Source of the DNA: Nitrosospira sp. Nsp11
GTDB lineage: Bacteria; Pseudomonadota; Gammaproteobacteria; Burkholderiales; Nitrosomonadaceae
NCBI RefSeq assembly: GCF_900142705.1
Contig: NZ_FRBV01000002.1
Coordinates: forward strand, 186,001 to 250,000
DNA length: 64,000 nucleotides
Reading direction: 5' to 3'
Each line of letters begins with the position of its first letter. Position 1 is the stretch's first letter. The notes under the pieces are model-generated. The model saw only the letters and a list, made by a program, of their open reading frames with translations, was not told the origin of the DNA and made no database searches. The translations under genes were made by a program, and so were the position numbers. This document shows, in pieces, positions 6,837 to 58,662 of the stretch.

Positions 6837-7859
6837 ATGAAAAAAAGGTTTATCCTGGTGGCTGTGCTTGCCATTATTGTCGCGGTGGTGGGAGGCTGGT
6901 ATTTCTCCAGGCACGCAGGCGACAAGGATACGCTGGTGCTCTTCGGTAATGTCGATATTCGCCAGGTCTCGCTAGCTTTCAACGGGAGCGAACGGATCGC
7001 CGATATGCGCGTGCAGGAAGGCGATCGGGTGGAGACCGGACAAGTCCTGGCCACGCTCGACACCCGTACCCTGAGGCTGCAAATCGCTCAGGCCGAGGCA
7101 CAGATCAACGTACAGGAGCAGGCCTTGTTACGGCTGCGGAACGGAACACGCCCCGAAGAGGTGGCTCAAGCCAAGGCTGAGGTCGCTGCTGCTCGCGCCG
7201 ACGCGGATCTTGCCGCACAGCTCCTCAAGCGTTTGCAAAATATCGAGCAGACTTCCGGTGAGGCGGTCAGCCAACAGGATTTGGACAGTGCGCGTTCGCG
7301 CCAGCGCGTGGCCGAGGCGCAGCTGGAAAACAACCAAAAGGCGCTGCAATTGGCCGTGATCGGTCCCCGCAAGGAGGACATCGCCCAGGCCGAGGCACAA
7401 TTGAACGTTTCGCAGGCTGAGCTGGCTTTGCTCAAGCATCAGCTCAGCCTGTACGAATTGAAGTCCCCCATCGATGCCGTCGTGCGCTCGCGCTTGCTGG
7501 AACCGGGCGATATGGCTTCACCGCAACGTCCGGTTTATACGCTGGCGATTACCGACCCGAAATGGGTGCGCGCCTACGTGTCGGAAGTGGATTTGGGCCG
7601 CATCAAACCTGGCATGAGTGCGCGCGTGGTCACCGATAGCCATCCCGATCAGTCGATTCCGGCCCGCGTCGGCTATATCTCCTCGGTTGCTGAGTTTACC
7701 CCTAAAATTGTGCAGACCGAAGAACTGCGCACCAGCCTGGTCTATGAAGTACGTGTCTTTGTCGAAGATGTCAGCGATCGTCTGCGCTTGGGCATGCCAG
7801 CGACGGTGTTCATCCCCTTGCAAGACGCCAAAAGCCTCGCTGGAACGGCGCATCGATGA
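6837..7859 (+). CDS. ybhG: HlyD-type periplasmic adaptor of an ABC efflux system (YbhG-like)
   Basis: A 340-residue membrane-fusion protein: N-terminal anchor (FILVAVLAIIVAVVGGWYF, residues 5-23), biotinyl/lipoyl half (VQEGDRVETGQVLATLDT), a long coiled-coil hairpin of about residues 80-200 rich in Ala, Gln and Glu, the second lipoyl half (YELKSPIDAVVRSRLLEPGD), and a beta-barrel domain. Length is close to E. coli YbhG (332 residues). It should link the inner-membrane permeases to an outer-membrane channel. It is the first gene of a four-gene unit with the same order as E. coli ybhG-F-S-R; the next gene overlaps it by four bases (ATGA). No TetR regulator lies upstream, unlike E. coli. Confidence 0.88.
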   Translation: MKKRFILVAVLAIIVAVVGGWYFSRHAGDKDTLVLFGNVDIRQVSLAFNGSERIADMRVQEGDRVETGQVLATLDTRTLRLQIAQAEAQINVQEQALLRLRNGTRPEEVAQAKAEVAAARADADLAAQLLKRLQNIEQTSGEAVSQQDLDSARSRQRVAEAQLENNQKALQLAVIGPRKEDIAQAEAQLNVSQAELALLKHQLSLYELKSPIDAVVRSRLLEPGDMASPQRPVYTLAITDPKWVRAYVSEVDLGRIKPGMSARVVTDSHPDQSIPARVGYISSVAEFTPKIVQTEELRTSLVYEVRVFVEDVSDRLRLGMPATVFIPLQDAKSLAGTAHR

Positions 7860-9670
7860 GCGGCCCGGCAGTCGCGTTGATCGCGAACCGCGTCCATAAA
7901 CGTTTTTTGGTCAAGGAAACGGGGAAATCGACTCAAGCTGTCGCTGATGTTTCGCTTGAAGTGCAGATGGGTTCGCTCACTGCCCTGGTTGGTCCCGATG
8001 GCGCAGGCAAGACCACCTTGCTGCGGATGATAGCCGGGCTGATGACGGCCGATGAAGGTCGGCTCGACGTACTGGGCATTGATGTAGCAGCCGATCCGCA
8101 GGCGGTACAGGACCGCATCAGCTACATGCCGCAGCGCTTCGGCCTGTATGAAGATCTCAGCGTGCAGGAAAACCTCGACCTCTACGCCGACCTGCATGGT
8201 GTGCCGCAAGCAATGCGGCGGAACCGCTACGCAAGGCTCCTAAAGATGACCGATCTCGCACGCTTCACCGCGCGCCCGGCAGGCAAGCTTTCCGGGGGCA
8301 TGAAGCAGAAGCTGGGCCTGGCCTGTACTCTCGTGCGCTCGCCCGAGTTGCTGTTGCTCGACGAGCCGACGGTGGGTGTCGACCCATTGTCGCGCCGGGA
8401 GCTCTGGGAGATAGTTCAGCAAATGATTGACGACGAGCAGTTGACGGTACTGGTTACCACTGCTTATCTGGATGAAGCCGAGCACTGCGCCCGGGTTTTC
8501 GTTCTTCAGGAAGGCAAGCTGCTGGCTGAAGGCACCCCGGAAGAAATTCGCCAACACGCGCGCAACCTGTGCTTCATCGTTACACCGCCGCAAGGTCAAC
8601 CTTTGCGTATCCTCCAGGCGCGCTTGCTGGATGACGCCGACTGCATCATTGATGCGGTTCCTTACGGTGGATCTGTGCGCTTCATTCGCCGGGCCGAGGT
8701 GGACCCACAGCGCCTGGACAGCTTGCTTGGCGGTATCCCGGCCACCGCGGTCGAAGCACGGGTGGAAGACGGGTTTATGGTGCTGCTGCGCGAACGGCAC
8801 GATGTCGCCCCTATGGATACAGCGATATCGAAAGCCGCCGGCGGGACGAAAAACGGAGGTAACGGGGAAGATAACGCTAAACGCGAGCCGGATGAAGTTG
8901 TCATCGAGGTGCGTGACCTTGTGCGCAAGTTCGGCGATTTTATCGCAGTGGACCATCTCTCATTCTCGGTTCGGCAAGGTGAAATTTTTGGCCTGCTAGG
9001 CCCCAACGGCGCAGGTAAGACTACGACCTTCCGGATGCTTTGCGGCCTACTGCCGGCTACCAGCGGTTTTCTTCAGGTCGCCGGCTTCAATCTTCTGCGT
9101 GCTCGCGCGGTAGCGCGCCGCAGGATAGGATATATGTCGCAGAAATTCGCGCTTTACGGCGATCTCTCGGTAATGGAAAACCTGGAGTTTTTCGGTAGCG
9201 CATATGGATTGTATGGCAAGCGCTTGCGCGAGCGCATCGATACCGTTATGCAGCAGTTTGACCTCGAGGGCAGGGAGAAGTCGCCGAGCGGGCAATTACC
9301 GGGTGGGTTCAAGCAACGCCTGGCCATGGCCGTCGGCCTGTTGCACGAGCCCGAGATCCTGTTCCTTGACGAGCCCACCAGTGGCACCGATCCGCTTAAG
9401 CGCCGGGAATTCTGGCGGCGTATCACTGCGCTGTCGGAGGTGGGCACGACAATTATCATTACGACTCACTTCATGGAAGAGGCTGAGTACTGCGATCGTA
9501 TTGTCATCCAGGATGCCGGCAGGCTGCTGGCGCTCGGCACACCGCAGGAGGTACGGATGCAAGCGGGTGGAGAGGGCGCCCGATTGAATATGGAAGAGGC
9601 CTTCATCCGCATTATCGAGCAGGAGCGGCGGAAAAACAGCGAAAGCCCTGCCGGGGAGGCCAACCCATGA
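7856..9670 (+). CDS. ybhF: ABC transporter ATPase with two nucleotide-binding domains (YbhF-like)
   Basis: A 604-residue cytoplasmic ATPase with two ABC domains in one chain. Domain 1: Walker A GPDGAGKTT, signature LSGGMKQKLGLA, Walker B LLLLDEPTVGVDP. Domain 2 (from about residue 347): Walker A GPNGAGKTT, signature LPGGFKQRLAMA in place of the usual LSGG, Walker B ILFLDEPTSGTDP. The D in the first Walker A and the altered second signature are also features of E. coli YbhF as I remember it, which supports orthology. A linker of about 45 residues rich in Gly, Asn and Lys separates the two. It powers the two permeases encoded next; E. coli YbhFSR exports drugs and cations. Confidence 0.9.
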   Translation: MSGPAVALIANRVHKRFLVKETGKSTQAVADVSLEVQMGSLTALVGPDGAGKTTLLRMIAGLMTADEGRLDVLGIDVAADPQAVQDRISYMPQRFGLYEDLSVQENLDLYADLHGVPQAMRRNRYARLLKMTDLARFTARPAGKLSGGMKQKLGLACTLVRSPELLLLDEPTVGVDPLSRRELWEIVQQMIDDEQLTVLVTTAYLDEAEHCARVFVLQEGKLLAEGTPEEIRQHARNLCFIVTPPQGQPLRILQARLLDDADCIIDAVPYGGSVRFIRRAEVDPQRLDSLLGGIPATAVEARVEDGFMVLLRERHDVAPMDTAISKAAGGTKNGGNGEDNAKREPDEVVIEVRDLVRKFGDFIAVDHLSFSVRQGEIFGLLGPNGAGKTTTFRMLCGLLPATSGFLQVAGFNLLRARAVARRRIGYMSQKFALYGDLSVMENLEFFGSAYGLYGKRLRERIDTVMQQFDLEGREKSPSGQLPGGFKQRLAMAVGLLHEPEILFLDEPTSGTDPLKRREFWRRITALSEVGTTIIITTHFMEEAEYCDRIVIQDAGRLLALGTPQEVRMQAGGEGARLNMEEAFIRIIEQERRKNSESPAGEANP

Positions 9671-10905
9671 ACGAAGCCGGAACAGAGCCAGGCAGCAAGG
9701 GGCTTCCCGCGGAGAAATCGGACAAGGTGGATAAAGCGGATAATGGGTACGAGGGACATAAAGGTATCAGGGGGTTCCGGTCGCGCCTGATCTCCCTGAC
9801 CCGCAAGGAAATTCGCCAGCTACTGCGTGACCGTAGCAACCTGATTATTGGTATCGGCCTGCCTCTCGTATTGATCCTGATTTTTGGCTATGGACTTTCA
9901 CTCGATGTCAGGGATGCCAAAGTGGCGGTAGTGCTGGAAGATCCTTCGCCCGTGGCGGCTGATGTCATCGCGGGCCTGGAGCTCTCCGCATATATCTCGC
10001 CGGTAGTGGTTACCTCCATGCATGACGCGCAGCGCCTGATGCTGGCGCGCGAGGTGGATGCCATCGTGCAGGTACAGAGCGATTTTTCGCGCCGCCTGGC
10101 GGCCGGGAACGCGCAAGTGCAATTGCTGTTGCATGGTTCCGACGCCAGTCGTGCACTTATCATACGCAGCTATGTCAGCAGTGCACTGAGTCAATGGGCG
10201 CAACGTCAGAGCGATCGTGGAATGGTAGCAGGGGCGGGCGTAGGCATCGCCGCCCCGGGATCGGTCACACTGATTCAACGGATGTGGTTCAACGCCGCCA
10301 ATACCAGCACCTGGTACCTTGTACCTGGGTTGATCGTGCTGATCATGACCCTGGTCGGCGCCTTCCTCACGGCGATGGTAATGGCACGGGAATGGGAACG
10401 CGGCACACTGGAAGCATTGTTTGTCTCCCCGGTACGACCCACCGAGATACTGCTGGCGAAGATCATTCCGTACTTTATGGTGGGAATGCTCGGCCTGGGC
10501 ATGTGCCTGCTCGCCGCGCGCTTCCTGTTCGAGGTGCCCATGTACGGTTCGTTGCTGATAGTGCTTGTCAGCTCGATGCTTTACCTGCTGGTAGCATTGG
10601 GACTGGGCCTGCTGATTTCTTCGGTTACCCGGAACCAGTTCCTGGCCAGCCAGCTCGCACTGATTACCAGTTTCATGCCGGCGCTGATGCTGTCGGGCTT
10701 TTTTTTCGACTTGCGTAATGTGCCGGTTGTCATCCACCTTATCGGCAACGCGCTGCCGGCTACGTATTTCATGGAACTGATCAGGACTTTGTTCCTGGCG
10801 GGTAACATATGGCTGCTGATTTTCAAGAACTGCGCGATCCTGGCGGGTTATGCCGTGGTGCTGCTGGGACTGGCACGGGCCGTTACCCGCAAGAAGCTGG
10901 ATTGA
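9667..10905 (+). CDS. ybhS: ABC-2 type permease (YbhS-like)
   Basis: A 412-residue inner-membrane permease: one N-terminal span (LIIGIGLPLVLILIFGYGL), a large periplasmic domain of about 150 residues, then five C-terminal spans. The cytoplasmic motif REWERGTLEALFVSPV, between the second and third spans, is typical of the ABC2 family. The first ~45 residues before RKEIRQLLRDR are unusually long and charged (many Lys, Asp and Glu). It overlaps the ATPase gene by four bases and is followed after three bases by the second permease, so all four genes should be translated together. Confidence 0.88.
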   Translation: MNEAGTEPGSKGLPAEKSDKVDKADNGYEGHKGIRGFRSRLISLTRKEIRQLLRDRSNLIIGIGLPLVLILIFGYGLSLDVRDAKVAVVLEDPSPVAADVIAGLELSAYISPVVVTSMHDAQRLMLAREVDAIVQVQSDFSRRLAAGNAQVQLLLHGSDASRALIIRSYVSSALSQWAQRQSDRGMVAGAGVGIAAPGSVTLIQRMWFNAANTSTWYLVPGLIVLIMTLVGAFLTAMVMAREWERGTLEALFVSPVRPTEILLAKIIPYFMVGMLGLGMCLLAARFLFEVPMYGSLLIVLVSSMLYLLVALGLGLLISSVTRNQFLASQLALITSFMPALMLSGFFFDLRNVPVVIHLIGNALPATYFMELIRTLFLAGNIWLLIFKNCAILAGYAVVLLGLARAVTRKKLD

Positions 10906-10908
10906 TAA

Positions 10909-12018
10909 ATGCTGAATTTCCTGCGCCGTATCGCCAGCCTGTGCCGGAAAGAGTTACTGGCTATTTTCAAGGATCCCGCCAATCGAGTCATCCTCGTCGT
11001 TCCCTCATTGATAGAAAGTTTTCTTTTCGGTTATGCGGCTACCTATGACCTGACCAATGTACCTTATGCCTTGCTGGACCAAAGCCGTGGCTCTGCATCA
11101 ACCGAATTGATCGCTCATCTGGATGGTACCGGCGTATTTCATCGCGTCGCAATGCTTCAGACGCAGGGCGATATCGCCCGGGTAATCGACAGTGGAGATG
11201 CACTGATCGTGATCCAGTTCGGGCCAAGGTTTGAGCAACAACTGAATGCAGGCGAATTCGCGCCGGTACAATTGATCCTCGACGCACGCAATTCGAATAC
11301 GGCCGGCTCCGCCGCGATCTATGTCGGTGCAGTCATCGATTCGTTCAACGCGACGCTGCGCGGCGGGACCGGGCCGCCGCTAACCGTCGAGCCACGTGCC
11401 TGGTACAATCCAAATCTCGAGACCCGCTGGAATATCCTGCCAGGTCTGATAGCCTCGTTGAGCATGATACAGACGCTGATGCTGTCTGCGTTGTCTGTTG
11501 CTCGTGAGCGCGAAAATGGCACTTTTGACCAGTTACTAGTGACACCGTTTTCGCCGACGGAAGTCATGATCGGCAAGGCCGTTCCAATCGTCATGATCGG
11601 CTTGACGCAATCCACCATCGTGCTGGCGGTAGCGCTGTTCTGGTTCAATATACCAATGGCAGGCTCACTGGTGACACTCTACGCAGGGCTGGGCCTGTTC
11701 ACGATTGCCAGCGTCGGCATGGGACTGTCGATCTCGGCGGTTTCGGCTAACATGCAGCAGGCCATGCTTTACACTTTCATGCTGATCATGCCGCTGGTAC
11801 TGCTTTCCGGACTGGCTACGCCGGTGCGCAACATGCCGCAATTCTTGCAGACCGCCACGCTGATCAATCCGTTGCGCTTCGCGATCGATCTGGCGCAGCG
11901 CGTTTACCTGGAGGGGGTCGGGTTGCTGACAGTCGTCCATGACCTGATTCCCCTGCTGATCATATCTGCTATCACACTACCGCTGGCGGCCTGGCTGTTC
12001 CGTAATCGTCTTTTGTAA
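10909..12018 (+). CDS. ybhR: ABC-2 type permease (YbhR-like)
   Basis: A 369-residue partner of the preceding permease with the same plan: KELLAIFKDPANRV, one N-terminal span, a periplasmic domain of about 140 residues, the motif ARERENGTFDQLLVTPFSPTE and five C-terminal spans ending in WLFRNRLL. The two permeases presumably form a heterodimer with the double ATPase. Last gene of the ybhGFSR-type unit; no clear terminator follows. Confidence 0.88.
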   Translation: MLNFLRRIASLCRKELLAIFKDPANRVILVVPSLIESFLFGYAATYDLTNVPYALLDQSRGSASTELIAHLDGTGVFHRVAMLQTQGDIARVIDSGDALIVIQFGPRFEQQLNAGEFAPVQLILDARNSNTAGSAAIYVGAVIDSFNATLRGGTGPPLTVEPRAWYNPNLETRWNILPGLIASLSMIQTLMLSALSVARERENGTFDQLLVTPFSPTEVMIGKAVPIVMIGLTQSTIVLAVALFWFNIPMAGSLVTLYAGLGLFTIASVGMGLSISAVSANMQQAMLYTFMLIMPLVLLSGLATPVRNMPQFLQTATLINPLRFAIDLAQRVYLEGVGLLTVVHDLIPLLIISAITLPLAAWLFRNRLL

Positions 12019-13150: not shown

Positions 13151-13633
13151 ATGGACGAAAAGAACGCGCCTACCAAGGGAAGCGCTAAAAAGGGCAAAGA
13201 GTCGAAGCCTGCTCGAAAAGGGCCAAAAGACTCGATCATTAATCCGGATGTCTCAGTTTTAAAAAACTACTCGCCAACGGAAGGCGCACAATCCCACCCC
13301 GACTGGGTAAAGAAACAGTTTCCGACATATATCGAACCTCATGGGGAACATGGCAAGCACGAAGCCACCAGCGTGCGCGAACTTACGCATAACGGGCACA
13401 ATATCAAGATCATCACTACTTACCTCGTCGAGGTGGACGGAGAGCCGGCGGACCTGCACCTTTCCGTTGATGAGGACGGGCAAGTTTATACGCATGCAAC
13501 ACCGTTTGTAACTTACGATTCCGCCGTGGATCTGATGAAACAAGTGATGGATGCCTATCCGGATGCGTTCTCTGAATCCGATCCAGGTCCCGAGCATGAC
13601 CATAATCCTAACCACGGTGGAGGTCACCAATGA
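13151..13633 (+). CDS. Small His-rich partner protein of tyrosinase, copy 1
   Basis: A 160-residue protein without signal peptide. Residues 1-40 are Lys-rich and probably disordered; a conserved core follows (about 75-140: HEATSVRELTHNGHNIKI, then TYLVEVDGEPADLHLSVD, DGQVYTHATPF and a helix ending YPDAF); the tail is His-rich (EHDHNPNHGGGHQ). The core is clearly related to the protein at 58222-58662, which also sits directly before a tyrosinase. The stop overlaps the tyrosinase start by four bases (ATGA), so the two are translationally coupled. By position and His content it may deliver copper, as the unrelated MelC1 caddie does in Streptomyces; this is inference. Start at ATG 13151 follows GGAGGAAC. 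Confidence 0.75.
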   Translation: MDEKNAPTKGSAKKGKESKPARKGPKDSIINPDVSVLKNYSPTEGAQSHPDWVKKQFPTYIEPHGEHGKHEATSVRELTHNGHNIKIITTYLVEVDGEPADLHLSVDEDGQVYTHATPFVTYDSAVDLMKQVMDAYPDAFSESDPGPEHDHNPNHGGGHQ

Positions 13634-14532
13634 TCCGCCACAATTTTCTTACTGACGCCGATGCTGCTCAGAAGTTCATTGATGGGGTAAGAAGGCTCAA
13701 AGACCCGGCACAGTTTCCATGGCCTGGCCGGGATGGGTTGTCGATCTATGACTCATTCGTTTTCTGGCATCACCAGTCGATGATGTTGATGACCCCGCCC
13801 AATCAAAATGACCGCAATGCGGCCCACTCCGGCCCTGCATTTTTACCCTGGCATAGATATTTTCTAATCACCCTGGAAGGATTTTTACGCCGGGCGGTGA
13901 ATGACAGCGAATTCAGGATTCCCTACTGGGACTGGACAGCGGATGCGGAGTTATCCGAACCTGCCACAGCTCCCATATGGAGCAATGGAAATCTGGGACA
14001 ATTCGCCGGCTCCGATTGGCGGGTTCGCCTTGAGATGAGCCTGAGGACAGGAGACTTGCGGCCGGTAAACCGATCGCTGCAACGTGAACTCGGCGATGCG
14101 GGAAGACTTCCTACCCGAACTGGGGTGCGAATGATTATACGGGATCAGGCAGCGTACGATACCTCGCCGTTTAGTTCGTCTTCGGCGGGTGGCTTGCGCA
14201 ATCTGGTGGAAGGTTGGGTCGGTAGCGAACGCATACACAACAGCGTGCATGTATGGATTGGCGGAGATATGGGACGGTCATCATCGCCCAATGATCCGGT
14301 ATTCTTTCTGCATCACTGCAATGTAGACCGAATCTGGGCCGCCTGGCAGGAAAGACACCTGAATTCAAGCTATTTGCCGGACATGACTGCCCCCGATACC
14401 CTCCAGTTTCACCGGATTGACGATGCGCTGTACAGCATTTATGAGGACACTGTCACCCCAGGAGATATGGTGGATTACAAAAGGTACTACGAGTACGACA
14501 CGATTTCGGATCTGACGGAACTGCAGGTTTAG
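13630..14532 (+). CDS. Tyrosinase family type-3 copper enzyme, copy 1
   Basis: A 300-residue protein with all six copper ligands of a type-3 dinuclear centre: CuA His47, His66 and His75 (WHHQS, NAAHSGPAFLPWHR) and CuB His203, His207 and His229 (IHNSVHVWIGGDM, DPVFFLHHCNVDRIW). The family oxidises phenols to catechols and quinones with oxygen; the actual substrate cannot be predicted. No signal peptide, so it is cytoplasmic unless the partner carries it out. Length matches short bacterial tyrosinases without a lid domain. It is coupled to the His-rich partner upstream and is paralogous to the tyrosinase at 57229-58206. Confidence 0.92.
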   Translation: MIRHNFLTDADAAQKFIDGVRRLKDPAQFPWPGRDGLSIYDSFVFWHHQSMMLMTPPNQNDRNAAHSGPAFLPWHRYFLITLEGFLRRAVNDSEFRIPYWDWTADAELSEPATAPIWSNGNLGQFAGSDWRVRLEMSLRTGDLRPVNRSLQRELGDAGRLPTRTGVRMIIRDQAAYDTSPFSSSSAGGLRNLVEGWVGSERIHNSVHVWIGGDMGRSSSPNDPVFFLHHCNVDRIWAAWQERHLNSSYLPDMTAPDTLQFHRIDDALYSIYEDTVTPGDMVDYKRYYEYDTISDLTELQV

Positions 14533-17407: not shown

Positions 17408-18274
17408 ATGCTCCCTACCGAACTAGTCAAGCTCACGGCGTTGATGGCACGCACCAGCGGCAGCCCGGACATGAAGATCGGGCTCATTGATGGACCCGTC
17501 TCCAGCGGCCATGCCGATCTGGCAAAAGATCGCTTGCGTGAGATTCCCGGCCAGAACGGTGCTACCTGCACGCAGGCCAATAGCACAGCTTGCGTGCATG
17601 GAACCTTTATAGCGGGCATCCTAACCGCAAAGCGAGGTTCTGCTGCGCCCGCAATCTGTCCCGGCTGTACTGTTCTCATACGCCCGATTTTCAGCGAGAA
17701 AACTTTTGGGCGCGAACACATGCCCAGCGCAACGCCGCAGGAGCTGGCGGTAGCGATTCTCGAGTGCATCAACGCGGGTGCGCGCGTTATAAACCTCAGC
17801 CTTGCCTTGGCACAGCCTTCCGTCAAAGGGGAACAGGCGCTGGAAGAGGCGCTCAACCAGGCGCTCAGGCGCGGCGTGCTCATCATTGCGGCGGCGGGCA
17901 ATCAGGGCACGCTGGGCAGTTCTGCCATTACGCGTCATCCGTGGGTCATCCCGGTGGTGGCCTGCGATTTGCGTGGCAGGCCGATAAACGAATCGAACCT
18001 GGGCGGTTCCATCGGCATGCGCGGCCTGAGCGCACCTGGCGATAGTATTACCAGCCTGGGCGCCGGTGGGCAGACGCTCACGCTGGGCGGTACGAGCGTC
18101 GCTGTGCCGTTTGTGACCGGCACCATTGCTCTGCTGTGGTCGGAATTTTCCACGGCAACCGCGGCGCAAATCAAGCTTGCTGCTACGAAAGCGTCTGCGC
18201 CGCGGCGAGCTTCGGTCGTGCCGCCTCTGCTGGACGCGGCGGTAGCCTACCAAAGCCTGTTGACTGCAAGTTGA
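17408..18274 (+). CDS. Subtilisin-like (S8) serine protease resembling PatA/PatG proteases
   Basis: A 288-residue protease with the full S8 triad: Asp28 (IGLIDGPV), His64 (CVHGTFIAGIL) and Ser230 (GGTSVAVPFVTG), plus the oxyanion Asn165 (AAAGNQGT). It has neither signal peptide nor prodomain, so it should act in the cytoplasm, which fits an enzyme that trims a leader peptide rather than a secreted protease. The bare catalytic domain and short N-terminus resemble the protease domains of cyanobactin PatA/PatG. The genes downstream include a PatG C-terminal-like protein and Cys-rich small proteins. The ribosome site before 17408 is weak. Cleavage of the small proteins is inference from context. 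Confidence 0.85.
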   Translation: MLPTELVKLTALMARTSGSPDMKIGLIDGPVSSGHADLAKDRLREIPGQNGATCTQANSTACVHGTFIAGILTAKRGSAAPAICPGCTVLIRPIFSEKTFGREHMPSATPQELAVAILECINAGARVINLSLALAQPSVKGEQALEEALNQALRRGVLIIAAAGNQGTLGSSAITRHPWVIPVVACDLRGRPINESNLGGSIGMRGLSAPGDSITSLGAGGQTLTLGGTSVAVPFVTGTIALLWSEFSTATAAQIKLAATKASAPRRASVVPPLLDAAVAYQSLLTAS

Positions 18275-18287
18275 AGGGGGAAAATGC

Positions 18288-18536
18288 GTGGCAAAATCAG
18301 TCGGCAAAAACGTACCTGACGATAAACCAGGCGAAAGAAATGACGCTTCCGATAAAAACCAAGCCCGGCCGCATCGAGTGCGTCTCCCCGGATTTATCAC
18401 CGAAGAGGAGATTGGGCTTGGCGATGCGGTTAAGCGTGCAACCGCTTATTTAGGAATAAAGCCTTGCGGCGGCTGTGAAAGCCGGGCAACTGCACTTAAC
18501 CGCTGGCTGGTCTTCAGCCAAAGGCGGACGAGGTAG
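18288..18536 (+). CDS. Small CGGC-motif protein of the protease locus
   Basis: An 82-residue protein, GTG start at 18288 with AAGGGGG seven bases upstream and 13 bases after the protease stop. Residues 1-35 are Lys-, Asp- and Asn-rich and probably disordered; the second half is a compact conserved-looking block: LPGFITEEEIGLGDAVKR, then YLGIKPCGGCESRATALNRW. The CxxC pair could bind metal or form a disulfide. The LPGF element recalls the PGF of the leader motif in the small proteins downstream, but the rest differs. I believe similar IGLGD...CGGC small proteins are common in proteobacteria but know no function. It may be a substrate or accessory of the protease. Confidence 0.65.
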   Translation: MAKSVGKNVPDDKPGERNDASDKNQARPHRVRLPGFITEEEIGLGDAVKRATAYLGIKPCGGCESRATALNRWLVFSQRRTR

Positions 18537-18537
18537 C

Positions 18538-18645
18538 GAATTTCTTAAAGTCGGTTTTGCAGGTTTCTTGACATCGTTAGCAGCTTCGCCCATACATAAA
18601 TGAAGAGCGACAGTATGAATGAACGAGCTGAAGCAGCGAAACAGG
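18538..18645 (+). repeat. Diverged duplicate of the start region of the PatG-like gene
   Basis: Bases 18538-18586 align with 19254-19302, sharing GAATTTCTT at the left end and CATCGTTA near the right end with one gap. After a stretch of no match, the first codons at 18615 align again with those at 19326 (24 of 33 bases by eye; MNERAEAAKQ against MSEQTEAKEQ). The left copy is therefore probably a relic of a duplication of upstream region plus start of the PatG-like gene. Confidence 0.6.
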
Positions 18646-18776
18646 CGGCAGGCCGATCGGGTGACGGCGCTTTCCCAGGCTCTTACCGGCTTGTGCAAAT
18701 ATGCCGGAATCTATCCGCAGATGGCTGGCGAGACCTGACCGGTAACCTTACCTACCTGAAAGGAGACATATCGTGA
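18615..18776 (+). CDS. Possible short protein, likely relic of the PatG-like 5' end
   Basis: A 53-codon open frame (MNERAEAAKQAAGRSGDGAF at the start, LTYLKGDIS at the end) whose first ten residues resemble those of the PatG-like protein. No good ribosome site precedes it. Its stop codon TGA (18774-18776) overlaps the GTG start of the next small gene, which would allow translational coupling. Either a genuine small protein or a remnant left by duplication; I favour the remnant. Confidence 0.3.
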   Translation: MNERAEAAKQAAGRSGDGAFPGSYRLVQICRNLSADGWRDLTGNLTYLKGDIS

Positions 18777-19197
18777 GCATGCCAGGATTTACCGCAGAAA
18801 CGTCCTTTACCAGACTAGCAATCGCTACCAGCTTGCGGTTGGCGGGATTTTTCGAAGTAATGGAACACAGTTGTGATGCCCCCAGGGGTGTGGATGGATT
18901 AAAAGCATTACCTGTGGAGGGGCGATAGCAGGATGTATTGTTCTATGTACCAGCGCCTGCCTTGGCTGCCCGGTAGCCTGTGGTGCTTGCTGGGTCGGCT
19001 GCCTGGGAATAAGCCTTTACGGTTTCTGCAGAGATTGCATTCCTGATATTGGTGGGGGCGGAGACGGCGGTGGCAGTGGTGGCGGAGGGGGAGGTGGTGG
19101 CAGTGGCTGCTGCCCACCGGGCAGGAGGTGCTGCGGTAGCTGTGCAAGCGGGAGATGTGATGATGTGTGCATAAGCCCTGGCCAGTCCTGTCCCTAA
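18773..19197 (+). pseudogene. Cys-rich precursor-like gene 1, split by a one-base frameshift
   Basis: GTG 18773 follows AGGAGA and opens with MSMPGFTAETSF, the same leader motif as the two small genes downstream. This frame stops at 18926-18928 after 51 residues. In the -1 frame, open from 18877 to the TAA at 19195-19197, lies a remarkable Cys-rich sequence (GCIVLCTSACLGCPVACGAC, a Gly-rich linker, then CCPPGRRCCGSC and a CP end). One added C in the CCCCC run at 18879-18883 would join both into one protein of about 140 residues with 20 cysteines. Explanations: real frameshift mutation, sequencing error in a homopolymer, or programmed -1 slippage. Read as one gene it is the largest precursor-like protein of the locus. 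Confidence 0.7.
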
Positions 19198-19230
19198 AAA
19201 ATAGGAACAGACAGGGTGCTATCTTTTTTT
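19187..19230 (+). terminator. Candidate terminator after precursor-like gene 1
   Basis: CCTGTC (19187-19192) and GACAGG (19210-19215) can pair around a 17-base loop, followed by a run of seven T at 19224-19230. The stem is short, so efficiency would be modest. It would separate the first precursor from the PatG-like gene. Confidence 0.4.
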
Positions 19231-19325
19231 AAGGCGCTGCGTTCGGCTACAGAGAATTTCTTGAGCCTGGATTTTCCGGATTTTTGAACATCGTTAACAC
19301 CCCCTACTACTTAAGGAGTAGCAAT

Positions 19326-20285
19326 ATGAGCGAACAAACTGAAGCAAAGGAACAGCAGAGGGAACAACTAGTGGACCAACCGATCAAGGTGAATGACGTA
19401 CGGGACGCCACGCCTTATCCCGATGCCCGCTCAAACATGGCAATCTCACCGCAGGGGGGAAGCGGAAACTGTGGTTGCGGGGGAGCTGGAGACATAAGTT
19501 CAAATGGTACTGGAGTGGTCTCTTATGTCTATGCAATCGGCCGGGTCGAAGCTCGCTTCCCGAACCTTTCCGCGGAAAAGGAATTTTCCCAGGCGACCGG
19601 ACGTACAGAAACTGCCGGAAAGACGGACCAGCAAGCTTTTCATGCTGTTCTGTCCCAGCGGGAGAACCGTTACCTCGTGCGCCAGTTATGCTGGGTGCTG
19701 ACGGTACAGGGCCTGGAAACCTACTTGTTGCAGCCGCGCGACCCGGCGGATATCGACATGCTGGTGGATGCTATCCGCCCCGCTCCCGCTCCCAATGACA
19801 TCGATGTCGTCATTGGTTTGCGCGGCCCTATTGCACCGCCGGAAATGTGTAACGGCTTGATGGTGCCGATAGTCGTATTCGACCAGATCTATTCTTTCGG
19901 CCGTGATGTACTTATAAAAGCCATTCCCAAGCCGGAGAAAATGGCTGATGAGCAATTCGGGCCCGCGGCCGAGGAACTGTTCGACCGGATCATGCAAATG
20001 ACGGACAACGCCGGGGCAACCGACGAGCACCGGGTGCTCAACTACCTGGCGATGCGTTATCCCGCCATCTATGCCAAAGCCGCAGAAAAATTCGGCGACG
20101 AGTATTCACTGACGGGGATTGAAGTGATCCAATCATCGTTGAGCAGCACCCGAAAAATTTTAAAAGTCGTCTTTTCATATACCAATCGCAATACCGATTT
20201 CACCGAGAAGTTCTTTGTGCGCGTTGATGCAACCGAGGAATTTCCGTTTTTGGTCACCAAGATGTCGCCATACTACGATCGATAA
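19326..20285 (+). CDS. PatG C-terminal-domain-like protein
   Basis: A 319-residue cytoplasmic protein. I chose ATG 19326, with AAGGAG seven bases upstream. Residues 1-40 are charged and Gln/Glu-rich, then a short Gly/Cys patch (GGSGNCGCGGAG). The main part (about residue 58 on) reads VVSYVYAIGRVEARFP, QLCWVLTVQGLETYLLQPRD, MVPIVVFDQIYSFGRDVL, which I recognise as the domain found C-terminal to the macrocyclase protease in cyanobactin PatG. No protease triad is present. In cyanobactin enzymes this domain has no settled function. Here it is encoded 1 kb after a separate S8 protease, so the PatG parts are split into two genes. Confidence 0.72.
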   Translation: MSEQTEAKEQQREQLVDQPIKVNDVRDATPYPDARSNMAISPQGGSGNCGCGGAGDISSNGTGVVSYVYAIGRVEARFPNLSAEKEFSQATGRTETAGKTDQQAFHAVLSQRENRYLVRQLCWVLTVQGLETYLLQPRDPADIDMLVDAIRPAPAPNDIDVVIGLRGPIAPPEMCNGLMVPIVVFDQIYSFGRDVLIKAIPKPEKMADEQFGPAAEELFDRIMQMTDNAGATDEHRVLNYLAMRYPAIYAKAAEKFGDEYSLTGIEVIQSSLSSTRKILKVVFSYTNRNTDFTEKFFVRVDATEEFPFLVTKMSPYYDR

Positions 20286-20321
20286 CCGGTATCAAACTGA
20301 ATCAGCTGAAAGGAGATAATC

Positions 20322-20564
20322 ATGAACATGCCAAGGTTTACTGCGGAATCGTCGATCTATAAAAAAGCTGGGAATTATCTTGCGAATAAGCAGGATGTTT
20401 TTGCTAATAACTCCTCGGCGATAATCCCGCAAATAATACGAACGATAGATCTCAATCGGGGATGCACACTATTTTGCGATTGCAATCCCGCGTCAGGAGT
20501 TTGTAGCTGTGACGCCACCTTATGCCCCATCCCACCATGGGGGTTGGTTCGTGCGACGTTTTGA
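20322..20564 (+). CDS. Cys-rich small protein 2 with the shared leader motif
   Basis: An 80-residue protein starting after AAGGAGAT, 36 bases past the PatG-like stop. The N-terminus MNMPRFTAESSIYKK shares the P-x-F-T-A-E-x-S pattern with precursor-like genes 1 and 3. Residues ~15-45 are polar and free of Cys; the tail has six Cys in 19 residues (RGCTLFCDC, GVCSCDATLC) and a PIPPWG segment. The division into a shared leader and unrelated Cys-rich tail is what ribosomal peptide precursors show. No signal peptide and no double-Gly cleavage site. Which residues become modified is unknown. Confidence 0.7.
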   Translation: MNMPRFTAESSIYKKAGNYLANKQDVFANNSSAIIPQIIRTIDLNRGCTLFCDCNPASGVCSCDATLCPIPPWGLVRATF

Positions 20565-20607
20565 GGATGCTGCTGCCCAGCCTTCATGGCTGCGCAGCAG
20601 CATCCTC
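20563..20607 (+). terminator. Strong hairpin between precursor-like genes 2 and 3
   Basis: Perfect 14-base arms GAGGATGCTGCTGC (20563-20576) and GCAGCAGCATCCTC (20594-20607); the 17-base loop can itself pair AGCC with GGCT. The left arm overlaps the stop codon of gene 2. No T-run follows, so it is more likely an mRNA stability or attenuation element that sets the ratio of the two small genes than a simple terminator. Confidence 0.7.
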
Positions 20608-20639
20608 TACTACCATCCTCACTAATTCGGAGGTGACAA

Positions 20640-20939
20640 ATGAACATAACGAACATCCCAGGGTTTACAGCTGAAGCTTCGTTGTACAAGGCAATCAACC
20701 CCTACCACATGATCGGCATGCTCCACCAAGCCGATGGCGTTATAAATCCTGCACAGATCGATTCCGATCCGTCTTGTTTTCCCGAATGCTTCCGTGAATG
20801 CATTCAGGAAGGCATTCCGCCATTTCAGTGCGGCCCGGCATGCCGCCGACAATGTACTCCGCCACGCCCAAGCTGTGGCCCCTGTGTAGGTTTCCGGCAG
20901 TGTTCTGATGGGAGCCAGAGGTCTTGCTCCGCGCCTTGA
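20640..20939 (+). CDS. Cys-rich small protein 3 with the shared leader motif
   Basis: A 99-residue protein starting after GGAGGTGA. The N-terminus MNITNIPGFTAEASLYKA carries the motif P-G-F-T-A-E-A-S-L-Y-K. Residues ~19-44 are Cys-free. The tail holds ten Cys, including SCFPECFRECIQEG, QCGPACRRQC and SCGPCVGFRQC, with several prolines and a basic patch. The spacing (CxxxCxxxC, CxxxCxxxC) is regular enough to suggest crosslinks or metal binding. No export signal. Third member of the same small family and last gene of the locus; no clear terminator follows in the next 200 bases. Confidence 0.72.
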   Translation: MNITNIPGFTAEASLYKAINPYHMIGMLHQADGVINPAQIDSDPSCFPECFRECIQEGIPPFQCGPACRRQCTPPRPSCGPCVGFRQCSDGSQRSCSAP

Positions 20940-21139: not shown

Positions 21140-21373
21140 ATGCCGAAATGTGATGGATGCGGGAATGACTACGATAAATCTTTTCAGATTATCGCTTCTA
21201 ACAAAACCTATACTTTTGATAGCTTTGAATGTGCAATTCAGATGCTCGCCCCTACCTGCGCGCATTGCGGCGTGCGAATTATAGGTCATGGTCTGGAAAA
21301 GAACGGGGTAATATTCTGCTGTAACCATTGTGCAGAGAGAGAGGGTGTAACGGAACTGCGGGATCGCTCATAA
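21140..21373 (+). CDS. Small Cys-rich zinc-binding protein
   Basis: A 77-residue protein starting after AGGAGGGC. It has cysteines in knuckle pairs: KCDGCGNDYDKSF, SFECAI, TCAHCG, FCCNHCAE, with the conserved segment YTFDSFECAIQMLAP and GHGLEKNGVIFCC. This pattern matches a widespread bacterial family of small metal-binding proteins, sometimes labelled prokaryotic metallothionein-like; the fold is likely a treble clef or zinc ribbon binding two metal ions. The role is unknown. It follows the RiPP-like locus after 200 bases but need not belong to it. Confidence 0.75.
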   Translation: MPKCDGCGNDYDKSFQIIASNKTYTFDSFECAIQMLAPTCAHCGVRIIGHGLEKNGVIFCCNHCAEREGVTELRDRS

Positions 21374-57228: not shown

Positions 57229-58206
57229 TCACACATTCAGCGAGTCGTAGGTATACAGTTCACTGATATCCAGCATGTCCGCAGGGGTAGTGGTCCCGGA
57301 CAAAAGGGAGCTCAAGGTGTCGTTGAGGCGGTGGCCCTTTAAGCTGGCGGATGCCGATTGCGCCGGGACATAAGCGCGGCCATGACCTTTCGGTGCCGGT
57401 TGCATCCAGCTTTCCCAAATGCGGTCCACATTGCAGTGGTTGAGATAAAACACCGGGTCGTTGGGTGATGTGGAGGGCGACATGTCTCCTCCAACGAATA
57501 CATGGACACGGTTGTGCAGACTCGGGGGTGGAATTTGCGGCTGGTCTTGCCAGCCTTCGACGAGGTTGCGAAAACCGGCTGAAGTGGTGTTCCATGGAGC
57601 AGTGTCATAGATGGGCTGATCAAGGGTGGTCGCCGTATGCGTTTTTTTCGGCAGACGGGTTGTCTGCGTTCCCAGTCGCCGGCGCAAGCCGCGATTTACC
57701 TGAACCAATTGTCCGTTGACATTTGTTGTGATGTGAACGCGCCAAGCGCCTGAATCGCCGGGTTCGAATGCGAATGGGCCTGTAGTTACTGGAACTCCGC
57801 TACCCCCCATGCAGTTGCTGGCCCAGACGGAGGCTCTTTTCTGACGTGCCGGCGACAATTGGCCATCTTGCGCCCAGTCCCAGTATGGCAGTCCAAAGGT
57901 CAAGTCATCGCCAAGCACGCGCTGGAGATTCATTTCCAGTTGCATCAGCATGAATCTATGCCATGGAAGAAAGACAGGGCCGCGATGAGCGGCGTTTCTG
58001 TCACTCTGCGTAGGCGGAGTGAACGTTGTCATCGCAACATGATGCCAAACCACAAACAGGTCATAGGTGCTGACCGGCTGGGAGAGCCCTTCGATGCCGA
58101 GGCTTGCTGTGGTTGGCCCCGGGAACTCATTCTTCAGTAACTTTACACCCTGGATATACTTGTCGCGCGCGGCCGCGCTAGTCAAAATATTTTCTCTTAT
58201 GGCCAT
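57229..58206 (-). CDS. Tyrosinase family type-3 copper enzyme, copy 2
   Basis: A 325-residue enzyme with six copper ligands: CuA His55, His74 and His83 (VWHHVAM, NAAHRGPVFLPWHR), CuB His231, His235 and His257 (LHNRVHVFVGGDM, DPVFYLNHCNVDRIW). The asparagine before His257 shows which of the two His in copy 1 is the ligand. It is about 40 percent identical by eye over the metal sites to copy 1 and differs in the loops. No signal peptide. The related His-rich partner is encoded 15 bases upstream, as in copy 1 but without overlap. Substrate unknown. Confidence 0.92.
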   Translation of the reverse strand: MAIRENILTSAAARDKYIQGVKLLKNEFPGPTTASLGIEGLSQPVSTYDLFVVWHHVAMTTFTPPTQSDRNAAHRGPVFLPWHRFMLMQLEMNLQRVLGDDLTFGLPYWDWAQDGQLSPARQKRASVWASNCMGGSGVPVTTGPFAFEPGDSGAWRVHITTNVNGQLVQVNRGLRRRLGTQTTRLPKKTHTATTLDQPIYDTAPWNTTSAGFRNLVEGWQDQPQIPPPSLHNRVHVFVGGDMSPSTSPNDPVFYLNHCNVDRIWESWMQPAPKGHGRAYVPAQSASASLKGHRLNDTLSSLLSGTTTPADMLDISELYTYDSLNV

Positions 58207-58221
58207 GGCGTTCTCCGGCGT

Positions 58222-58662
58222 CTATTCGTGATCAGTATGGGTTTTCCTGACGCGACGGGTCTTCGGCGCGGATTTGGCGCGAGGCCGGCTCCGGGCGCCA
58301 TGGCTCTCATGTCCACCATGTTCTGCGGGCATACCCCCCTTGCCAGCGAAGTCATCAGGAAAGACATCGATCAACTGCCTGACCACGTCCAGGGCGGAAG
58401 CGAAGCTCATGTTCGGTATGGGGTGATAATGGACTTGCCCGTCGTCGGTCACCCCGAGATGTCCGGTAACAGGTACCCCATCGACTTCTATCTGATAAGT
58501 TGTGCGAACAACGATATGATGGCCTTCATAGTCCGCTTCGCGGACAGTTTCAGATGCCTCGTGCTGGTGCCTCTGGGCTTCCTCCACCTGAGGGGCATGC
58601 TTTTTGACGTAGGAGCTTATTGACTTCATAGTCGGCCGGCTAACTTGATTCTGGCTTGGCAT
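58222..58662 (-). CDS. Small His-rich partner protein of tyrosinase, copy 2
   Basis: A 146-residue protein; ATG 58662 follows AGGAG. Core (about 35-105) HEASETVREADYEGHHIVV, TYQIEVDGVPVTGHLGVTD, DGQVHYHPIPNM and a helix ending FPDDF aligns with the partner at 13151-13633 (for example YLVEVDGEPADLHLSVD and DGQVYTHATPF). The C-terminal tail is rich in His, Arg and Lys (EHGGHESHGARSRPRAKSA). No signal peptide or membrane span. Conservation of the pair order at two loci is the main sign of a joint function, probably copper loading or substrate handling. Confidence 0.78.
   Translation of the reverse strand: MPSQNQVSRPTMKSISSYVKKHAPQVEEAQRHQHEASETVREADYEGHHIVVRTTYQIEVDGVPVTGHLGVTDDGQVHYHPIPNMSFASALDVVRQLIDVFPDDFAGKGGMPAEHGGHESHGARSRPRAKSAPKTRRVRKTHTDHE

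Follow-up and report, generated by a model that had tools for sequence, protein, structure and literature searches.

The DNA analysed here, referred to below as the window, is a stretch of 64,000 nucleotides from contig C24 in the 3.2 Mb genome of Nitrosospira sp. Nsp11, a soil ammonia-oxidising bacterium. The nearest named relatives of the host are Nitrosospira and Nitrosovibrio, in keeping with the betaproteobacterium suspected when the locus was first picked out from its sequence (the original prediction). Positions 17408–20939 of the window hold a cassette in which every gene is on the + strand (Table 1). A subtilisin-type (S8) protease is accompanied by a small CxxC protein, here called the CGGC protein, by a protein resembling the C-terminal domain of the cyanobactin enzyme PatG, and by two short cysteine-rich genes with 6 and 10 cysteines, all of them found in the common direction originally described; the protease and the PatG domain are indeed separate genes. 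The cysteine-rich, precursor-like gene that had been placed before the PatG gene does possess a precursor-like leader and core, but it is interrupted, its pieces lying in different frames. Uninterrupted counterparts, as judged by eye, occur in two related loci (L031 5964–6419, in a single frame, and another in L002).

Table 1. Genes and sequence motifs of the cassette, with positions in the window
Feature	Position	Strand	Support
P0001, PatA-like S8 (subtilisin) protease, 288 residues	17408..18274	+	Pfam Peptidase_S8, 80.9 bits
P0003, small CxxC (CGGC) protein with leader-like LPGF motif, GTG start	18288..18536	+	
Leader piece (SMPGFTAETSF...) of interrupted precursor gene	18773..18928	+	Leader profile, E=5e-6; frame closes at 18928
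Cys/Gly-rich piece holding the core of this interrupted precursor; its frame differs from that of the leader piece	18904..19197	+	
P0002, free-standing PatG_D + PatG_C protein, 319 residues	19326..20285	+	Pfam, 128.1 / 112.9 bits
[IV]xPQ...CxC precursor-like motif, residues 40–51 of the PatG protein, in its disordered N-terminal tail	19443..19478	+	
P0004, precursor peptide, 80 residues, leader MPRFTAESSIYK, core with 6 Cys	20322..20564	+	Leader profile, E=1e-5
AIIPQ motif, proposed leader/core border of P0004	20418..20432	+	PQ enrichment and cysteine parity
P0005, precursor peptide, 99 residues, leader IPGFTAEASLYK, core with 10 Cys	20640..20939	+	Leader profile, E=5e-11
VINPA motif, proposed leader/core border of P0005	20739..20753	+	Proline at +30 from the leader proline, inside the motif peak at 30–32

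The short cysteine-rich genes share a leader with the consensus M-x-[MIL]-PGFTAEASLYK-x4-Y, which is present in 106 distinct open reading frames (ORFs) in 33 of the 34 loci examined, the window included. These were collected with a profile trained on the same loci in which they were counted: 111 ORFs matched at E<=1, a cut-off at which about one chance match is expected, and 106 remained once those sharing their last 15 residues had been dropped. Matches in three short stretches (L002, L010 and L013) were left out of the precursor counts. Because the profile itself found the ORFs, the conservation of the leader is partly by construction. All but one of the 106 are on the same strand as the PatG gene, and in the locus missed by the profile (L049) ORFs that start with LPGFI adjoin that gene. 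Together with 14 new distinct sequences, obtained from 20 matches in orphan genes (described below), the set amounts to 120 ORFs, in which the leader proline is conserved in 118, F in 116, A in 116, E in 103, S in 98 and the tyrosine at +15 (numbered, as throughout, from the leader proline) in 98. Conservation fades past the leader and rises again at about +30 to +33, where the pattern is V-x-P-Q; PQ occurs between +22 and +48 in 61 of the 120 precursors, whereas 200 shuffles gave 12 on average and never more than 19. No conserved C-terminal tail was seen; in the final eight residues of 117 ORFs the information content does not exceed 0.32 bits per position. Searches of the precursors against Pfam and NCBIfam gave nothing at E<=1, nor did PADLOC give a match, and we take their leader not to be of the Nif11 or nitrile-hydratase kind. 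The strings PGFTAE, TAEASLY, FTAEASL and GFTAEAS were in none of the papers of our full-text literature searches, and among the matches listed, subscription papers being mostly outside the search, none described this leader or precursors of this type together with a free-standing PatG domain.

Behind this fixed leader the cores vary, several unlike ones occurring in a single locus and as many as 12 ORFs in one of them. The latter, from an Acetobacteraceae bin (L048 2155–7930), has its twelve precursor-like ORFs within less than 6 kb behind one cassette. Long cysteine-rich proteins with the leader also exist, with 44, 46 and 30 cysteines (L045 4044, L046 11037 and L046 12967, respectively). Between orthologues the picture is more conservative. 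The P0004 core differs from its counterparts in L020, L025, L027 and L029 by 0.16–0.19 nonsynonymous substitutions per site (dN), with synonymous values (dS) of 0.58–0.96 or saturated, and the P0005 core from its counterpart in L018 by a dN of 0.11 with dS saturated. Since the changes in the P0004 core are mostly silent, the cores in the window would appear to be stable products among close relatives, paralogous cores being unlike.

Precursors are not confined to the cassette. The leader profile (A4) found orphan precursors far from it in 10 of the 13 Nitrosospira genomes that carry the PatG gene, that of the host itself being on contig C15 (L050, about 5083, - strand) with 4 cysteines. Twenty orphan stretches were fetched and gave one leader match at E<=0.1 apiece; in the eight of these for which ORFs were listed, neither a cassette gene nor an evident tailoring enzyme was found by eye. 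Judged by their leaders, these genes place putative substrates outside the cassette as well, elsewhere in the genome. Six of the orphans (L053, L054, L055, L056, L062 and L068) have 24 cysteines and are similar across Nitrosospira genomes, with lengths of 155–165 residues in the four measured; a similar one with 20 cysteines is found in L067.

The number of cysteines in the cores is predominantly even. Counted from the leader proline, 84 of the 106 ORFs have an even number, 21 an odd number and one has none; counted from anywhere between +26 and +30 the figures become 96, 7 and 3 (p=4e-21 if the precursors are independent). Further in, parity drops to 91 even and 11 odd at +35 and 74 and 27 at +40. 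A safer count than this p-value, which assumes independence, takes one sequence per core cluster; over 53 clusters, one of which chains 42 sequences, even and odd come to 35.5 and 16.5 from the proline and 43.9 and 6.1 from +26. A P[QAS] motif is present in 92 ORFs; after it the number of cysteines is even in 85 and odd in 5, compared with 76 and 16 from the proline. The window's interrupted precursor contributes one odd row. As a control, other residues were counted in the same way starting at +22. Even to odd ratios lay between 46:60 and 54:50 for G, P, S, A, R, D and E; odd numbers prevail for W (24:48) and Y (25:52), presumably since these residues most often occur once. Cysteines in the leader thus spoil the parity and those in the core restore it, from which we infer that the core starts at about +26 to +36, close to VxPQ, and that its cysteines pair. 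This suggests that the leader is removed near VxPQ and that the products are disulfide-bonded.

The candidate for the removal of the leader is the S8 protease, P0001. In an alignment of 34 rows (window included) its catalytic triad is conserved in every row that reaches the columns concerned (Asp28 33/33, His64 33/33, Ser230 34/34), and Cys54, 62, 84 and 87 are likewise fixed in 33/33 rows; in L032 the open frame covers the C-terminal part only. Inspection by eye shows no signal peptide at the N-terminus, and the Pfam match is clear (Table 1); the cytoplasmic S8 protease with an intact triad that was originally described stands. The best four matches in the PDB are 4h6w, 4h6v, 3zxx and 3zxy [1e-28 to 6e-28]. 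The record of the first names PatA, and the other three we take to be PatA proteases also. Classical subtilisins follow [3.8e-16 at best] and after them the PatG macrocyclase entries, that is, those titled “thiazoline oxidase/subtilisin-like protease” [3.5e-13 at best]. The spacing between Asp28 and His64 is 36 residues, and in PatA (4h6w, counted from the PDB alignment) it is 35. The PatG macrocyclase holds an insert between these two residues of the triad. By sequence comparison the protease is nearer to PatA than to the macrocyclase, and it is proposed here as the leader peptidase. A macrocyclising enzyme of the PatGmac type was considered and rejected on the grounds that the spacing leaves out the insert and that the substrates have no C-terminal recognition tail. 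A defence function was also rejected, the subtilase matches being weak: P0001 scores 30.2 bits against part of the IetS model of the subtilase anti-phage system IetAS, and no AAA match was obtained among the cassette proteins scanned.

P0002 was originally likened to the C-terminal domain of PatG, and a hidden Markov model search bears this out, with scores of 128.1 bits for PatG_D [PF18047, cut-off 27] and 112.9 bits for PatG_C [PF18065, cut-off 25.9]. Used alone as a phmmer query, P0002 found no PDB chain at E<=0.1; a profile of 34 relatives matched the crystal structure of the PatG domain of unknown function, PatG-DUF [4uvq, 1.7e-5]. The AlphaFold2 model of P0002 has the same structure as its sole PDB match at E<=0.001 [4.1e-12; template modelling score 0.59 by query and 0.69 by target]. 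The mean predicted local distance difference test score (pLDDT) of this model is 67.4, residues 1–64 falling below 50. Over the 34 sequences 56 columns are invariant. The N-terminal tail of about 64 residues is variable and predicted to be disordered, except for an [IV]xPQ motif followed by CxC (P42 in 33/34, Q43 in 29/34, C49 in 32/34 and C51 in 30/34).

Relatives of the CGGC protein with the conserved part in one open frame are present in 25 of the 34 loci, the window included, and all 25 match phrog_32048, a family of unknown function. L33, P34 and F36 of the LPGF motif are invariant in the 25, as is CxxC. AlphaFold2 models the protein as strand-helix-helix-strand with CxxC opening the second helix (mean pLDDT 74.7). 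Whether searched alone or as an alignment, it matched NCBIfam with E=0.04 at best, and Pfam and PADLOC not at all. The two helper proteins between them carry both halves of the precursor leader, and we predict that both of them bind to, or are cleaved by, the one protease.

When a collection of species genomes was scanned with P0002 there were 76 pattern matches, and 33 of these code for relatives. Each of the 33 loci fetched also has a relative of the S8 protease on the same strand, upstream of the PatG gene in 32 and downstream in L028, which is more than chance would give. Protease, PatG domain and leader peptides thus occur together in other genomes; this result and the PatG match, the two that could have refuted the original prediction, both favour it. 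The carriers belong to seven phyla (Pseudomonadota, Acidobacteriota, Nitrospirota, Myxococcota, Cyanobacteriota, Bacteroidota and Methanobacteriota), of which Bacteroidota (Ferruginibacter) and Methanobacteriota (Methanoperedens) are represented by one bin each, and bins may hold stray contigs. Genome counts were made within the phylum of the host. In the genus, 13 of 23 genomes (the host's own included) have the PatG gene and 14 the protease, the fourteenth resting on a partial match in G002, whose assembly is 80% complete; all 13 have both the protease and leader peptides. Leader matches were also found in 9 of 10 genomes of other groups. Overall the cassette is rare, PatG_C being found in only 2 of 398 genomes drawn evenly across the phylum, one of them the host's own.

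Plasmids also carry the cassette, 5 of 72,556 plasmid records matching P0002. The protease, the CGGC and PatG proteins and leader peptides are all present on plasmids of Mesorhizobium sp. B2-1-1, Sinorhizobium mexicanum (a conjugative plasmid) and Streptomyces sp. NBC_01568. A plasmid of S. xanthophaeus has the CGGC and PatG proteins, but no S8 protease at E<=1e-40 and no leader match, and the fifth match, from Photobacterium, is 23% identical to P0002. Of the four plasmid stretches lying outside the training set of the profile, three therefore carry leaders, with eight matches at E<=1 (L071–L073, none in L074); two of these (L072 7253 and 8330) look weak and have 3 cysteines each. The PatG-like protein is labelled “hypothetical protein” in the plasmid records, and none of the eight leader matches is in their incomplete gene tables. 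On the Mesorhizobium plasmid AAA genes sit upstream of the cassette. No phage matched, and of 29 pattern matches in viral contigs none was confirmed, so that carriage by phages or viruses was rejected. The distance matrices of the protease and the PatG protein agree, with a Mantel r of 0.86 (33 rows, window in and L032 out; 0 of 2000 permutations as high) and of 0.85 without Nitrosospira; for the CGGC and PatG proteins r is 0.61 (24 rows). The PatG tree calls for 4 changes of label in Pseudomonadota and 3 in Acidobacteriota, of which well-supported branches force at most one each. The tree alone is no proof; taken together with the plasmids it makes horizontal transfer likely.

Based upon these observations we propose, with a probability of about 0.6, that the locus is a minimal, transferable cassette related to the cyanobactin processing machinery, in which the S8 protease and the PatG protein act in trans on leader-tagged disulfide peptides. 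The precursor would consist of a fixed leader, running from the consensus given above to VxPQ, and a varied core whose cysteines are even in number. In the cytoplasm the PatA-like protease would cut off the leader at or just past VxPQ, while the PatG protein, the proposed substrate adaptor or protease partner, would assist in trans, most likely by binding the leader or by docking on the protease through a tail which copies VxPQ..CxC. The CGGC protein, which copies LPGF, would be an accessory that not every locus needs, perhaps assisting in redox reactions or holding the protease in check, and the freed cores would fold with disulfides into miniproteins. A bolder version of this proposal we put forward tentatively, with the odds somewhat against it: that this is a new class of ribosomal peptide, spread horizontally across eight phyla including the bin of a methanotrophic archaeon, that the PatG protein is an adaptor for the leader protease, that the helpers copying the leader halves gate the protease or are processed by it, and that one cassette matures many unlinked disulfide miniproteins.

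Several neighbouring genes of the window might be taken for further parts of the cassette. An exporter operon (6837–12018, + strand: HlyD-like, double-ATPase and two ABC-2 membrane genes) lies 5.4 kb upstream, and was rejected as it was not seen to recur with the cassette. Export by a transporter with a C39 peptidase was dismissed too, there being no match in the host genome and matches in only 2 of the 23 genomes of the genus. Two pairs of a tyrosinase and a small partner are encoded at 13151–14532 (+ strand) and 57229–58662 (- strand), the tyrosinases being 44.5% identical. Apart from the window, the former pair was seen upstream of the cassette in only five loci, all of Nitrosospira type, and it was therefore rejected as a source of tailoring enzymes. 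Downstream, at 21140–21373 (+ strand), is a small cysteine-rich protein that has no leader and only weak, below cut-off matches to zinc ribbons; its gene is kept downstream of the cassette in L018, L019, L020 and L024.

As had been noted originally, no YcaO, radical SAM, methyltransferase or transporter is found among the cassette proteins scanned (Pfam, NCBIfam). One might suppose that this is a split cyanobactin pathway with its YcaO or other tailoring enzyme elsewhere in the genome, the protease and the PatG domain both being of the cyanobactin kind and an MNIO-family gene being present in 23/23 genomes of the genus. This we consider highly improbable. YcaO is encoded in 0/23 of these genomes, the same search having found it in 5 of 14 named control genomes, and for YcaO in the genus the idea is mostly refuted; the MNIO gene is there with or without the cassette, so that an MNIO enzyme acting in trans was also rejected; and azoline formation would not predict even cysteine counts. 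No further gene family recurs in three or more loci outside Nitrosospira beyond the protease, the PatG and CGGC proteins, the precursors and shadow frames, in a test based upon BLAST clusters of ORFs of at least 60 residues, drawn from the whole window and from the 5 to 21 kb fetched around each of the other loci, with shadow frames removed by eye. Since YcaO is missing and no other family recurs, the evidence points to leader cutting and disulfides rather than to chemistry that is new or supplied elsewhere, which the original prediction had allowed for. A related idea is that the PatG protein or the protease itself installs a further modification (macrocyclisation, or a backbone or cysteine linkage), in which case the class would be one of ribosomally synthesised and post-translationally modified peptides (RiPPs) with new chemistry. 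PatG-type S8 relatives are macrocyclases according to the available part of a published account (PMC10885120), and the 56 invariant columns of the PatG protein resemble those of an active protein, from a domain whose role was left open in the accessible part of the 2014 structure publication (PMC4259220). The PatA-like protease with its PatA-like Asp-His spacing, the lack of a conserved C-terminal tail on the precursors and the even cysteine counts, which plain disulfides fit, make such a modification rather improbable.

A different explanation would remove the locus from natural products altogether and assign it to house-keeping or to the stress response, the protease recognising a tag on cysteine-rich proteins and maturing them for the handling of metals or redox. 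The tagged orphan genes with up to 24 cysteines, scattered in Nitrosospira genomes with no evident tailoring enzyme in the eight of 20 stretches viewed by eye, would suit it, as would the leader ORFs with 44 and 46 cysteines, the CxxC of the accessory CGGC protein and the preservation of the cores of the window's two intact precursors among close orthologues. The patchiness within the genus (13/23 genomes), the plasmids, the unlike cores in each locus and the sharing across phyla resemble secondary metabolism or competition instead, and we regard the house-keeping explanation as unlikely.

A number of points weigh against a cassette of protease and PatG protein acting on disulfide peptides. 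With NCBIfam the protease scores slightly higher against the mycosin model TIGR03921 (119.3 bits) than against that of PatA, TIGR03895 (111.7 bits), both scores being far under the model cut-offs (421 for TIGR03895). The P[QAS] motif is missing from 28 of the 120 precursors, and 7 of the 103 with cysteines from +26 have an odd number of these; the ORFs with 44 and 46 cysteines do not look like ordinary peptide products. Among the 10 genomes of the genus which lack PatG, G013 alone encodes a leader peptide, and it has no protease gene either. The CGGC gene is interrupted in 2 loci and without a match in 7 of 34. Disulfides form under oxidising conditions, but an exporter recurring with the cassette was not seen. 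According to the structure paper (PMC4259220), nuclear magnetic resonance (NMR) detected no binding between PatG-DUF and the patellamide precursor, a result which tells against leader binding by this domain in cyanobactins; the docking tail of the protein described here could make the difference. The RiPP locus of the original prediction stands as far as ribosomal precursors with a conserved leader and a variable core are concerned (106 distinct ORFs), while “RiPP” in the strict sense is a proposal until a product is seen, the one modification of the core to be inferred being the disulfides that cysteine parity suggests.

The PatG domain is here split from the protease in a cassette of two or three genes with clear substrates, so that its role could be probed by comparing the system in its presence and its absence. 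Many disulfide-rich peptides of soil and water bacteria should also be easy to find by means of the leader, and parity counting, which places the border of leader and core from counts alone, may serve for other families of disulfide peptides.

Of the known systems the patellamide pathway, with PatA and PatG, is the closest. Shared with it are the PatA-like protease, the PatG C-terminal domain, precursors made up of leader and core and, as proposed here, removal of the leader by an S8 enzyme. Protease and domain are fused in cyanobactin pathways and encoded separately here. Cyanobactin products are small macrocycles, whereas the cores of the cassette are cysteine-paired and tens of residues long. 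As described in the available part of the literature, cutting of the leader by a PatA-like protease is the first half of cyanobactin maturation, and the recognition sites are G(L/V)E(A/P)S before the core and AYDG-like after it (PMC10885120). The leader and VxPQ site described here are unlike the former, and there is no C-terminal recognition tail; with YcaO also absent from all 23 genomes of the genus, a cyanobactin pathway proper was rejected in spite of the PatA/PatG-type protease and the PatG domain. A cyanobactin peptidase gene mentioned for Roseomonas oryzae in the accessible text of another paper (PMC8776678) may or may not be of the same kind. Compared with PatG-DUF (4uvq, PMC4259220) the family and fold of P0002 are the same; the cyanobactin domain is fused to a protease, while P0002 is free-standing and has a disordered tail bearing the precursor-like motif. 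A protein of 661 residues from another genome of the phylum (L070 10126–12111) has the same three Pfam domains, S8, PatG_D and PatG_C, fused in one chain, and unlike the cassette it has no leader ORF at E<=1 in its 19.9-kb stretch. The neighbours of the fused gene (L070 4923–12111, - strand) include a flavin adenine dinucleotide (FAD) oxidoreductase, a glycosyltransferase and a 2-oxoglutarate oxygenase, possibly a different PatG-type pathway. In the prochlorosin and Nif11/NHLP systems one leader serves many unlike cores, and substrates are found outside the cluster too. No lanthionine synthetase or YcaO is seen in the present case, and what is shared with those systems is the logic of one leader and many cores.

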